A stretch of 48,293 nucleotides of DNA from NCBI GenBank assembly GCA_028867735.1, contig JAGWFW010000006.1:1-48293 (forward strand), written 5' to 3'. The DNA comes from Nitrososphaerota archaeon (GTDB taxonomy: Archaea; Thermoproteota; Nitrososphaeria; Nitrososphaerales; Nitrosopumilaceae). The notes beneath the pieces are model-generated. The model saw only the letters and a program-made list of their open reading frames with translations, was not told where the DNA came from and did no database searches. A program made the position numbers and the translations under genes. This document shows, piece after piece, positions 9,288-37,286 of the stretch. Position 1 is the stretch's first letter. Every line of letters starts with the position of its first letter.

Positions 9288-9295
9288 CTTTAAAT
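9288..9295 (+). promoter_or_regulatory. TATA box of the LEA14-like membrane protein gene
   Basis: CTTTAAAT is centred 27 bases before ATG 9319. It favours this ATG over the in-frame TTG at 9295. Confidence 0.5.
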
Positions 9296-9318
9296 TGAGT
9301 GGATCGGATTTCAACGCA

Positions 9319-10104
9319 ATGTCAGACGATGCAATCAATCTGGTTCAATCATTCATTGATTCCAAAAAAGGAGACACTAACAGATTGCAGGAGATTCTCA
9401 TCAAGTTGCAGCAAGGAAATTCTCTTGATGCCTCTGATCAAAGTTATTTGGATGAGATTATAAAAGAAGTACAGGCAGCAGAGCAAACACCTTCCGAGAC
9501 TTTGGAACATCCAAATTCCGAGATTTTGGAACACCCTGATTTCTCGGAGCAACAGAATGTGGAACACGAGTCCCTTGATGACGCTGTCATTCGCGAAACT
9601 AGAAACTCGCCGTCAAGAAAAAGAGTCATAGCAATATCGGCCGTAATTGTCTCAATAGTGGTGGCATATGTAGGACTTGATGTTTATTCTGTTGGCACGC
9701 TGCAGTTCAGGCCAGTGCAGGGAAACCAGTATCAGATATCGCCAACAGAGATTCACATACGGGCAGCCGTCTGCAATCCCTCGTTCTTTCCCGTAACTTT
9801 TAACAAATATGAGATAAGCGCCTTTTACGATTCAGAGCCAATAGAAAAAGCCGAAATAAATGGCAGCACGGTCTCACCCAAGACAGCATCCGTGGTAGAG
9901 GGTATATTTGTGCTAAATGCGGACAGCATACTCAAACTAAAAGAAAAAAACGCAACGTTTGATCCTACGCTGGCAAAAATTACTACAACGGTTGACGCTC
10001 CAATATTCGGGGCAATTCCTTTCTCTGTAGTAAAACAGTATTCCGCAGAGCAATTCCAGGATGTGCTCAGAAATGGACCTCCCGGCGATTTCAGCTGCAG
10101 TTGA
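9319..10104 (+). CDS. Membrane-anchored LEA14/WHy-like protein with GKGDT-type N-terminal domain
   Basis: A 261-residue protein. Residues 1-55 form a short helical domain (MSDDAINLVQSFIDSKKGDT, then RLQEILIKLQQG) that is also the N-terminus of the SHOCT protein at 15859-16158. A Glu/Pro-rich linker with two LEHPNSEI/LEHPD-type repeats follows, then a transmembrane helix (about 105-125) and an extracellular domain with IHIRAAVCNPSFFPVTFNKYE, typical of LEA14/WHy folds found in stress and surface proteins. Orientation is inferred as N-in, C-out. It ends three bases from the convergent thioesterase gene. Confidence 0.65.
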   Translation: MSDDAINLVQSFIDSKKGDTNRLQEILIKLQQGNSLDASDQSYLDEIIKEVQAAEQTPSETLEHPNSEILEHPDFSEQQNVEHESLDDAVIRETRNSPSRKRVIAISAVIVSIVVAYVGLDVYSVGTLQFRPVQGNQYQISPTEIHIRAAVCNPSFFPVTFNKYEISAFYDSEPIEKAEINGSTVSPKTASVVEGIFVLNADSILKLKEKNATFDPTLAKITTTVDAPIFGAIPFSVVKQYSAEQFQDVLRNGPPGDFSCS

Positions 10105-13736: not shown

Positions 13737-14288
13737 CTAGTCTTTTCTTTTCTTAATTGAGAGAGTTTTCTGTACTTCATTAATGCTGCTTAGAAACTTT
13801 TGTTTTGCCTCATATTCATCGGTTACTTTGATCACAATTCCCGTAGGGGAAAACATTACGTCTTTTACAAGTATTGGCGAGCTCAATCCCAAAAGTTCGC
13901 TCAATATATCAAAGATGTTCTTAAATGTATTTTCACTTTTGTATTTGAAAAAAGTGCTTCCGTCGGCTATCAGCGGATTTGGCTCTAATGGAATTACAAG
14001 TTCGTGTGATGTAAAATCAGAGATGAATGTGGCAATATCGTCATTTATCTTGGCAGTCAGGGTCTCTTTTTCTTTCACGAGTTTTTCTTTTGCAGATTCC
14101 AGCTCTTGCGTTGCGTCAACGTACTGTTCGCCAATCATTTTTGCAAACGTTGATTCAGTCGATATTTTAAGCGGTATTTCATGAATTCTAAAGTTTATTG
14201 TGGAAAGTTCATCGTCAACGTCAGTTAGTTGTTGCCTGTTTCGTTTTATCTGGAGTGCGACTTGTTCTAGAAAATTAAAGTCGGTCAT
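13737..14288 (-). CDS. Coiled-coil protein coupled to the artubulin gene
   Basis: A 183-residue soluble protein. Residues about 8-90 are heptad-rich (RNRQQLTDVDDELSTIN and later ATQELESAKEKLVKEKETLTAK), predicting a coiled coil. Residues about 95-183 look like a small alpha/beta domain (PILVKDVMFSPTGIVIKVTD). Its ATG at 14288 lies only two bases after the artubulin stop, so the two must be co-transcribed and probably translationally coupled. A filament partner, adaptor or regulator of the tubulin is the natural inference. The family is not recognised. Confidence 0.65.
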   Translation of the reverse strand: MTDFNFLEQVALQIKRNRQQLTDVDDELSTINFRIHEIPLKISTESTFAKMIGEQYVDATQELESAKEKLVKEKETLTAKINDDIATFISDFTSHELVIPLEPNPLIADGSTFFKYKSENTFKNIFDILSELLGLSSPILVKDVMFSPTGIVIKVTDEYEAKQKFLSSINEVQKTLSIKKRKD

Positions 14289-14290
14289 GG

Positions 14291-15685
14291 TTATGCACTA
14301 AATTGATGAACAACGTCCATAAGACTTTGCTTGAACTCTTCGGTTGTAAGCCCCCACTTGCCATATTCTTCCTTGTAGCCGTCCCAAGAGGCCTCCGCCT
14401 CGCTTGCAATCTCCAAGATCTTGGGCCCAATCGCTTTTGTGTTTACAAGTATTGTCACATTTGCTTGCTCTGTATCCAGTATTGGAATCTTGACAAATAT
14501 CATGCGAGATTCTTCAATGTGGAATCTGTCCTTTATCATGTTCTTCAGGATATCCCTCTCCTTTGCATCAAAGTCTCCTTTGATCTTGACTAATGCAACA
14601 CAAGAGTCCCGTTGTCCGCCCTTGTCACGTACGTCATTTTCATCAATGTCAAATAATACGGCGTCGTTTTTCTTTCCGATATGTTCTACAATAGCATCCA
14701 TGGTATTTCCCTTTCCTCCAGACATTAGATCAGTTCCCCACTGCTTTTCCTCCGGAACCACCGGGATAACCCACGGTACTGCAAACCTTGGTTTCTTTGT
14801 TGCAAGCCATGTCCTGTAGTTTGACATGTCCCATTCTGTTTCTCTTGCAAATGATGCAGTAAACATCGATATGGCGTTTGCCGCAATAAGGTTCATTCCT
14901 TTATAGTCCTTCCATCCAATCTCATGTTCTTTTGGAAGATCGTCTATGATTGATTGTAGTTTTTCTGTCTTTTTCTCATGTTTGTGGGCAAGTTCTCTTA
15001 GCCTCTTGTTTGAAAATAAAAGAGAGCAGTCGCTGTATTTTATCTGGTGTTCGAGATTCATGACAATGTTAATTGCTGCTGCTTCAAAGATTACCGGATC
15101 CCAGCCAAATTCTGGCAACAATCCAAACGATGCGATTGTGGCATGTTCCTTTGTGTCTTTTTTGATATACTGCATGAATGCGCTGGCAAAGGAACTGCCT
15201 GTTCCTCCACCCATTGCAAATGGAATTGTAAAGCCTCGCACTGGCTCAGGAGACAGTCCTGCCAGTTGCTTTTGCATGTCAAATTTTTTGGTTACTTCAT
15301 TGATGAATCTGCTTCTGCCTTCTGCCCAGTTTCTTGCTGCCCCGCCTGATCCGTGAATGACATGTTTGTCACGGAGTGCAAAAAGATCAGGATATGACTG
15401 CAGTATGAGGTTTGCTGCTCTTGGGTCAAGGTCGACTAGCAGTGCACGTGGAATTAGTGGAATCTCATTTCCACCATATGAGTTTGGAAATCTCAAAATT
15501 GTGCTGCCATACCTCTTCAAAACGCGCGATTCGTCCTTCTCACCTTTTAATGTGGGCTTGAGAGGATCAGCCCCTACGTCAATCAATAGTCTCCTATATG
15601 CCTCTGCGCCAAGCCCTATACCGCAATGGCCAAAACATGTCATCAGAACTGGTGCTGGAGGTAGTGGAGCGTTAACAGTAGCCAA
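14291..15685 (-). CDS. Artubulin: archaeal tubulin-like GTPase
   Basis: A 464-residue tubulin-superfamily protein, closer to eukaryotic tubulin than to FtsZ. T1 is GHCGIGLGAEAYRRLL (19-34, compare tubulin GQCGNQIG); T3 is VDLDPRAAN (84-92, compare VDLEP); SGGAARNWAEGR aligns with tubulin DAANNYARGH; T4 is MGGGTGSSF (158-166); YSDCSLLFSNKRL aligns with HSDCAFMVDNEA; and MFTASFARETEWDMSNYRTW covers T7. The tubulin T7 catalytic Glu is Asn289 here, so hydrolysis across the longitudinal interface may be weak, as at the beta-tubulin Lys site. Artubulins have been described in a few Nitrosoarchaeum genomes. Start TTG at 15685 is needed to keep strand S1; an ATG at 15643 would truncate it. The coiled-coil gene follows directly. 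Confidence 0.88.
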   Translation of the reverse strand: MATVNAPLPPAPVLMTCFGHCGIGLGAEAYRRLLIDVGADPLKPTLKGEKDESRVLKRYGSTILRFPNSYGGNEIPLIPRALLVDLDPRAANLILQSYPDLFALRDKHVIHGSGGAARNWAEGRSRFINEVTKKFDMQKQLAGLSPEPVRGFTIPFAMGGGTGSSFASAFMQYIKKDTKEHATIASFGLLPEFGWDPVIFEAAAINIVMNLEHQIKYSDCSLLFSNKRLRELAHKHEKKTEKLQSIIDDLPKEHEIGWKDYKGMNLIAANAISMFTASFARETEWDMSNYRTWLATKKPRFAVPWVIPVVPEEKQWGTDLMSGGKGNTMDAIVEHIGKKNDAVLFDIDENDVRDKGGQRDSCVALVKIKGDFDAKERDILKNMIKDRFHIEESRMIFVKIPILDTEQANVTILVNTKAIGPKILEIASEAEASWDGYKEEYGKWGLTTEEFKQSLMDVVHQFSA

Positions 15686-15858: not shown

Positions 15859-16158
15859 TCAAAACTCAGTTATTGTCTTTTTCAGTTCCCTAAATTCGTC
15901 TATTGTAATCTTTCCTTCTGCAAGCCGTAGTCTAAGAAGTGCTACTGGGTCTTCCAATTTAATTTCAGGCTGTACATCCGGGGTTTCCATCTTGTTGTTG
16001 CTTGATTCGTCAGATATCAGATTTTGCACATATTTGTAATCAGACATGTATACAGGGTTGGATTGTTTTACAAAATCAAGTATTTCTGTCAGTCTTTTTG
16101 TGTCTCCTTTGCCTGAGGCAAGAAGTGTTTTTACATTTTTTATAAAGTCGTCTGACAT
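15859..16158 (-). CDS. SHOCT-domain protein with GKGDT-type N-terminal domain (99 aa)
   Basis: Two domains. Residues 1-52 (MSDDFIKNVKTLLASGKGDT, then KRLTEILDFVKQSN) match the N-terminus of the membrane protein at 9319-10104. Residues about 70-99 (DPVALLRLRLAEGKITIDEF, then RELKK) form a SHOCT domain, a short oligomerisation or recruitment helix pair. The ATG begins one base after the stop of the TPR gene, so they form an operon. A scaffold or adaptor role is inferred from SHOCT plus TPR linkage. Confidence 0.75.
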   Translation of the reverse strand: MSDDFIKNVKTLLASGKGDTKRLTEILDFVKQSNPVYMSDYKYVQNLISDESSNNKMETPDVQPEIKLEDPVALLRLRLAEGKITIDEFRELKKTITEF

Positions 16159-16159
16159 G

Positions 16160-16972
16160 CTATTTCACAACTGCCTTGAATCGAAGATCATCTTTTAGCC
16201 TATTAAATGCAGAGTCCTTTGTTGCCCATCCCTTTATTGTCTTTCCATAATACAATATGGCCTGTGCAAGAAGCTCAAGAGCTTCACGATCATCGCCCAA
16301 TTCCGCCTTGCTTCTAGCTTTTGAATAAATTACAGTACCGTTTTTCGGGCTGTTCCTTAAAACCTTGTCAAACAATGAAATTGCGTCTTGGTGTTTACCA
16401 AGTTCTGCAAGGCTCGTAGCTTTGTAAAATAGGGCCTCAAAATTTTCTGGATCTTTTTCCATTACTTTATCAAAACATGGTAACGCATCATCGTGCTTTT
16501 TCTGTTTTCCAAGTACGAGACCCTTAAAGTAAGTAGCAGAAATGTTTTCAGGATCAATTGATAAAACATGATTGAAGCATTTGAGGGCCTCGTCATATTT
16601 CCCTACTCCTATTTCTGCAATTCCCTTGTTGTAGACGACCGAAACATGGTTCGGGTCCACTTTCAGTGCCTTTTCATAGAAACCTAGTGCACGTTCAAAT
16701 TGCTGTTGTTCTGCATGCAGGTTTCCCAAATTGTTCAATGCCAGTACATGGCTGGGATTTTTTTCAAGTATTTTTTCAAAAGAGAGCACGGCATCTTTGT
16801 GTTTCTTTAGATGAACCAGTGACAGCCCCTTGTTGTATAGCGCATCTAGATTTAATGGATCAATTTTTAGAGCCTTGTCAAAGAACGATATAGCGTCTTT
16901 GTGCTTGCCAAGTTTTGCATAGCTTGTGCCTTCCGATATCATTCCAGCAGATTCATTTTGGTTTTGTGTCAA
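16160..16972 (-). CDS. TPR-repeat protein (seven repeats)
   Basis: A 270-residue protein made almost wholly of seven 34-residue tetratricopeptide repeats (about residues 9-246), each with the GKHKDAISFFDKALKIDP type consensus and an intervening ALYNKG turn. A capping helix closes the C-terminus (GWATKDSAFNRLKDDLRF). TPR solenoids bind peptides or assemble complexes; the partner is unknown. Start is TTG at 16972. It is the first gene of a two-gene unit with the SHOCT protein, upstream of artubulin on the same strand. Confidence 0.88.
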   Translation of the reverse strand: MTQNQNESAGMISEGTSYAKLGKHKDAISFFDKALKIDPLNLDALYNKGLSLVHLKKHKDAVLSFEKILEKNPSHVLALNNLGNLHAEQQQFERALGFYEKALKVDPNHVSVVYNKGIAEIGVGKYDEALKCFNHVLSIDPENISATYFKGLVLGKQKKHDDALPCFDKVMEKDPENFEALFYKATSLAELGKHQDAISLFDKVLRNSPKNGTVIYSKARSKAELGDDREALELLAQAILYYGKTIKGWATKDSAFNRLKDDLRFKAVVK

Positions 16973-36332: not shown

Positions 36333-37286
36333 ATGGAATTTCAGATGCAAGGACCAATTCTAGTTGTAGGATTGGGAGGCGCTGGGAGCAGACTTGCTGC
36401 AGGCATAAAAACAGAGATTGGATGCGATTCCCTTCTGATCAGTCACGACCCAAAGGACCTAAACCAAGAATCTTCCAAGATTTTGATAAATACCAACCCC
36501 ATTCTCAACCCATCAGCATATCTTATCAGAGGCATATCATTTGGTGCAAGAAGATCAATTGCTGAAAAACTAGCGTCCTATTCAACCGTAATAATAATAG
36601 CTAACTTGGCCGGAAAATCCGGTGCGGCGTTGGCCCCGGTTGTCTCCCAGATTAGCAAGGAAATGGGCAAAAATGTTCTTTCCTTTGGAATCATGCCTTT
36701 CAAATTTGAAAAGGACAAGATTTTCTTCTCAGGAGTTTCCCTAAAAAGACTAAAGGCGAATTCTGATTGCACCGTAATTATAGACAATGATGCTTTGCTT
36801 GACAGCAATCCAGATCTGACACCTGATTCTTGCAATGCCATTACAAATGCTGCCTTGATGTATGTTGTTTCCACTTTGAAAAACTCATCCCTGCCACTTA
36901 AGACAAACATTCTCTCAACCAGTAAAGACATATCAGATGTTGAAACATCTCTTAGAGACTCGATCAAGATGTTATACGAGGATGCGCCTCCAAACAGCAT
37001 CAAGAGTGCGTTGCTCTACGTAGTAGGAGGAAACAAAGTCCCGATTGGCGTTCTAAATTCAATGGTGAGTACCATCAGCGGAATATTTAGCAATGATAGT
37101 ACTAGGGTCAGTTTGTCTGTTGCAAATGGTGAAAAGTCCAAAGTGGTACTGCTTACCTCAATAGAAGGAGAGACGCGTTTTGACAGATATGACCCTCTAG
37201 GAATTGTTCCAAAAGAGAATATGCTAGATTGGGACGAACCAGACTCTAGCGTGAAGATAGACTTGGAACTAGAACAAATAGAATAG
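36333..37286 (+). CDS. Degenerate FtsZ-like protein
   Basis: A 317-residue tubulin/FtsZ-fold protein. T1 is VVGLGGAGSRLA (11-22); the T4 region reads NLAGKSGAALAPVVSQISKE (91-110) where FtsZ has GGGTGTGAAPVVA; LSFGIMPFKFEKD matches the FtsZ VTKPFSFEG strand; and DCTVIIDNDALLD (145-157) matches T6. The Gly-rich phosphate loop is eroded and no FtsZ-like T7 NxDxxD was found, so GTP hydrolysis is doubtful. Thaumarchaea divide mainly by the Cdv/ESCRT system and carry such divergent FtsZ of unknown role. It is convergent with rpl31e, two bases apart. Confidence 0.82.
   Translation: MEFQMQGPILVVGLGGAGSRLAAGIKTEIGCDSLLISHDPKDLNQESSKILINTNPILNPSAYLIRGISFGARRSIAEKLASYSTVIIIANLAGKSGAALAPVVSQISKEMGKNVLSFGIMPFKFEKDKIFFSGVSLKRLKANSDCTVIIDNDALLDSNPDLTPDSCNAITNAALMYVVSTLKNSSLPLKTNILSTSKDISDVETSLRDSIKMLYEDAPPNSIKSALLYVVGGNKVPIGVLNSMVSTISGIFSNDSTRVSLSVANGEKSKVVLLTSIEGETRFDRYDPLGIVPKENMLDWDEPDSSVKIDLELEQIE

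Follow-up and report, generated by a model that had tools for sequence, protein, structure and literature searches.

A conserved protein gene directly downstream of artubulin and its probable role as an artubulin accessory protein

Introduction

Artubulin figures in discussions of the origin of eukaryotic tubulin as a relative of the ancestor, and its function is untested in the papers found. The sole functional link that they propose for it, based on two genomes, is to ESCRT-III. A Snf7 gene (CdvB, ESCRT-III) is a neighbour of artubulin in Nitrosarchaeum (Yutin and Koonin 2012, PMC3349469), and the absence of this neighbour in Nitrosotenuis uzonensis has already been pointed out (PMC3835317). 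According to the accessible text of a later survey, coiled coils occur in most of the unknown genes that neighbour tubulin-like proteins in archaea (Santana-Molina 2023, PMC9871819); that text names no conserved partner family of artubulin and singles out Snf7 alone for it.

The locus studied here raises the question of whether artubulin has a conserved protein partner of its own. In the window, by which we mean the whole stretch of 48,293 nucleotides that was analysed, the artubulin gene is directly followed by a small gene, hereafter called the partner, which the original prediction held to encode an unrecognised coiled-coil protein and a conserved companion of artubulin (Table 1). Here, we report that artubulin and the partner form a conserved two-gene unit whose members are lost together, and that the partner is probably an accessory protein dedicated to artubulin.

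Table 1. The artubulin locus and its neighbours in the window
Feature	Coordinates	Strand	Details
Artubulin partner protein gene	13737..14288	minus	183 aa, ATG at 14288; ORF and junction
Spacer, artubulin stop codon to partner start codon	14289..14290	minus	2 nt
Artubulin	15685..14291	minus	464 aa, TTG start, T4 signature GGGTGSS kept (alignment)
99-aa protein, weak SHOCT similarity	15859..16158	minus	context only
TPR protein	16160..16972	minus	context only

Results

Artubulin and the gene that follows it

The upstream gene had been correctly labelled as artubulin. Its product matched Pfam Tubulin at 2.1e-16, a profile search of the PDB gave a list headed by Asgard tubulin (3.5e-17) and gamma-tubulin (2e-12) as the best solved relatives, and in a small tree the artubulins and the order's FtsZ proteins fell into separate groups. 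Judged by sequence, artubulin is a protein of the tubulin/FtsZ superfamily whose GTPase domain resembles tubulins more than FtsZ. An ordinary thaumarchaeal FtsZ gene is also found in the window (36333-37286, plus strand), about 21 kb from artubulin, and in another genome of the same genus (G111) the distance is about 18 kb; the two tubulin-superfamily genes are thus near neighbours in Nitrosotalea. A further tubulin-superfamily match (G030:C9:37199-37459, family f7) lies within an open frame of 903 aa, and similar frames of 893-904 aa occur in G045, G102 and G028.

Start and stop of the two genes were placed as predicted. The artubulin stop codon TAA occupies positions 14293-14291 and the minus-strand junction reads ...GTGCA TAA CC ATG ACC. 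The spacer measures 2-4 nt in most Nitrosotalea and in other genera reaches about 20 nt, a spacing that suggests translational coupling of the partner to artubulin. Homologues of the partner with 50-97% identity were found in dozens of genomes, and comparison with G018 gave an NG86 dN/dS of 0.070, the only unsaturated value among three pairs computed, dS being saturated in the other two. On these grounds the reading frame is a real gene, and its substitution pattern is that of purifying selection.

Structure of the partner

The layout of a coiled coil followed by a small alpha/beta domain was borne out by an AlphaFold2 model built with 46 homologues (mean pLDDT 92.8, pTM 0.81). In this model residues 4-92 form an antiparallel helical hairpin, with helices at 4-51 and 60-92, and residues 93-183 form a small alpha/beta domain of the order beta-beta-alpha-beta-beta-beta-alpha. 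The description of the protein as unrecognised likewise stands. No family in Pfam or NCBIfam was matched at its cut-off, PHROGs gave no significant match, and Foldseek searches with the full-length model against PDB and viral proteins returned no significant relative (none at E < 0.1) and did not bring up any similarly shaped protein known to bind filaments. No viral homologues were found, and the isolated C-terminal domain, of which the model was poor (pLDDT 70), was without a Foldseek match. Nor was similarity of the ZapA, ZapB or TubY type seen at the Pfam cut-off or in Foldseek at E < 0.1. Identity of the partner with the published Snf7/CdvB was considered and dropped, there being no Pfam or NCBIfam match and an hhalign probability of 0.6% against the CdvB family.

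Artubulin and the partner are paired across the order

Profile searches for both proteins covered 300 genomes of the order. Artubulin was found at 71 places in 70 genomes, and at 70 of these places the partner was the next gene downstream on the same strand, with spacers within about 25 nt. In the remaining case, G308, both genes face contig ends, with 45 nt left after artubulin at the one and 58 nt before the partner at the other, the pattern that an assembly break between the two genes would produce. None of the 70 artubulin genomes was without the partner, so that a partner missing beside other artubulin genes, which would have spoken against the original prediction, was not encountered.

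The pair is present in families f1, f3, f10 and f13, and is still kept in f10 and f13 where the artubulins are far diverged (about 57% identity to that of the window in f13). One genome (G026) carries two artubulin loci in unrelated contexts with a partner of its own at each. The distances among artubulins correlate with those among partners, with r = 0.987 for the whole set and 0.966 for f1/f3 alone, values to which shared species history contributes. The partner accumulates changes at about 2.6 times the rate of artubulin. In G253 and G306 artubulin is cut down to its C-terminal 168-234 residues and the GTPase domain is gone, while the partner is intact (L247 3810-4325, L248 5421-6206).

The partner occupied the +1 position of artubulin in all 15 distinct, unrelated gene contexts, and the next commonest neighbour family was seen in three. 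Since the type of SHOCT-like 99-aa protein that precedes artubulin in the window is found at -1 in 3 of the 15 contexts, it is not a constant companion. This protein carries a segment SGKGDxxRLxEIL, and its relative in the window is the N-terminal part of the ORF at 9295-10104. The gene for the TPR protein was seen next to artubulin in just two groups, Nitrosotalea and a related clade. All six f10 loci that were read have a third gene on the same strand behind the partner, encoding about 312 aa that fit no clear family (e.g. L147 5495-6433); its assignment to ESCRT-III found no support.

The Nitrosarchaeum loci have the gene order CdvB - artubulin - partner, with CdvB upstream of artubulin, and contain the same artubulin gene as the published artubulin-Snf7 neighbourhood (PMC3349469). 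The partner is not homologous to Snf7, and while the partner is universal beside artubulin, CdvB/Snf7 stands there only in the Nitrosarchaeum-type context among the 15 tabulated. A family-wide link of artubulin to ESCRT-III is not supported by gene context.

The partner decays when artubulin is lost

Three genomes have recently lost artubulin at a site that is still recognisable, and the partner is broken in all three, with the flanking genes left intact. G017, which is 99% complete, retains the surrounding genes, the TPR gene among them, but of the partner only a stub of 44 residues with stops is left; artubulin and partner may here have been lost jointly by a single deletion. In G238, CdvB and the next gene are kept, artubulin is gone, and the remnant of the partner (73% identity) has 36 gap positions and is spread over several frames. 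The stretch of DNA that runs from the final bases of artubulin across the partner is 94% identical between G036, a draft genome, and its sister species; the rest of artubulin is missing in G036 and the partner is frameshifted.

Homologues in genomes without artubulin

The original prediction would also be weakened by homologues widespread in genomes without artubulin, and here the result was divided. In family f2, probably the Nitrosocaldaceae, six genomes without artubulin have kept a homologue that is of full length yet altered and adjoins a radical-SAM gene. A hidden artubulin next to it was considered and dropped; the sole tubulin relative in these genomes is FtsZ-like and far from the homologue. 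One f2 homologue gave a sub-threshold ZapB match in Pfam (E 0.016) that involves the coiled coil only. The radical-SAM protein is 47% identical to one encoded downstream of the partner in Nitrosotalea G011 (L139 1191-2210 and L057 4531-5481), and its gene is possibly an old neighbour of the partner family. In family f8, probably the Nitrososphaeraceae, 23 genomes without artubulin have a shortened homologue in which most of the hairpin is missing, located in the loci read between Nep1 and Rpp21 (RNase P) - S19e - PDCD5. The homologue is not the usual occupant of the Nep1-Rpp21 interval, a notion that was dropped because no homologue lies there in the other families examined or in one f8 genome. 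A search of 250 genomes that belong to the phylum but not to the order yielded no credible homologue and one spurious match.

Given the f2 and f8 homologues, the partner family is not strictly exclusive to artubulin, and the protein can evidently serve some purpose without it. In the artubulin-bearing lineages, on the other hand, the link is absolute in the sample.

A candidate contact site

Among 17 diverged sequences of artubulin-paired partners, conservation peaks in a stretch around residue 134, within ELLGLSSPI, and G134 and P138 are invariant. The corresponding loop LLGLSSP comprises residues 132-138 (about 13895-13875). In the f2 homologues three residues of this loop are deleted and the LGLSxP motif is missing, a correlation that makes the LGLSxP loop (residues 133-138) a candidate artubulin binding site and falls short of proof. 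The tip of the hairpin, which ranked 16 of 73 windows in conservation, was dropped as a specially conserved binding site.

Discussion

The proposal of a conserved artubulin partner is strongly supported by the adjacency at 70 of 71 places, its persistence in every context compared and the three cases of decay, and the same support extends to the view of the partner as a dedicated artubulin-associated protein. Because it is present beside artubulin in every genome examined and decays after the loss of artubulin, the partner very probably works with it. How it may do so, possibly as the filament-binding adaptor of the original prediction, can be outlined. The partner would be made together with artubulin and bind it directly, most likely through the small alpha/beta domain and its LGLSxP loop, and the helical-hairpin arm could act on artubulin filaments by cross-linking, spacing or regulating them, or by anchoring them to some other component of the cell. 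This role for the arm is suggested by analogy to the coiled-coil accessory proteins of FtsZ and TubZ. TubY, ZapA, SepF and EzrA are small accessory proteins, several of which contain coiled coils; they bind to TubZ or FtsZ filaments or regulate them. The partner differs from these in that neither sequence nor fold similarity was detected, the tubulin relative is another one, and binding is here inferred. The bacterial kinesin light chain (Bklc) of Prosthecobacter is likewise encoded by an accessory gene beside a prokaryotic tubulin, BtubA/B; Bklc is a TPR protein, whereas the partner is without TPR.

In its most specific form the proposal is tentative, at somewhat below even odds: an ancient thaumarchaeal protein may have become an obligate artubulin partner, that is, a fixed subunit or regulator of the filament, with the LGLSxP loop, missing in the artubulin-less f2, for binding and the long helical arm linking the filament to other structures.

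The partner could instead be a folding or assembly chaperone of artubulin, comparable to tubulin cofactor A for beta-tubulin, whose target is the nascent or unpolymerised protein and which is not itself part of the filament. Strict co-encoding downstream with a spacer of 2-20 nt would suit co-translational capture, the helical hairpin has the shape of many small chaperones, and decay after artubulin loss fits a chaperone equally well; in G253 and G306, moreover, the partner is intact beside the C-terminal part of artubulin. However, neither Pfam nor the fold search revealed a resemblance to prefoldin or tubulin cofactors, and the long-term retention in f2 without artubulin is unexpected for a client-specific chaperone, which leaves this explanation unlikely.

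Still less probable is an older thaumarchaeal protein with a function of its own, which could concern RNA or ribosome genes or else an FtsZ-type protein, and with no tie to artubulin beyond a common operon. The location of the short f8 homologues among Nep1, Rpp21, S19e and PDCD5 would agree with such a function, as would that of the f2 homologues beside a radical-SAM gene in genomes where the only tubulin relatives are FtsZ-like. An independent gene should not have decayed in the three recent artubulin losses, nor would its linkage to artubulin be expected to survive across 15 different contexts, and the Nep1-Rpp21 interval of the other families examined holds no homologue.

Mere linkage, with the two genes inherited or transferred as a block and without a functional tie, has very little to recommend it. 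Neighbouring genes may be transferred or deleted jointly, and the trees of artubulin and partner match; but the surroundings have been reshuffled many times with the artubulin-partner junction unchanged, and universal adjacency in the 70 artubulin genomes and in 15 of 15 contexts together with the decay cases largely refutes this reading. Least credible of all is membership or paralogy in the KEOPS Pcc1/Pcc2 family, which was prompted by a Pcc1-like secondary-structure order in the C-terminal domain and, in our own reading, an acidic residue near the Pcc2 signature position, and was dropped in view of an hhalign profile-profile probability of 0.1-0.2%, a real Pcc2 elsewhere in the genome of the window (L201), separate Pcc1 and Pcc2 in N. 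devanaterra (L170, L204), and no Pcc1 found by Foldseek with the low-confidence model of the domain.

As a probable dedicated accessory protein, the partner bears on the biology of the family in two ways. Because the pair adjoins a CdvB/ESCRT-III gene in Nitrosarchaeum, a role in division or membrane shaping is plausible there. No prior description of the partner family was found in a search of open-licence papers, and the partner is the first family-wide handle on artubulin, consisting of a two-gene unit and a named loop. The finding thereby corrects an ESCRT-III-centred view of artubulin.
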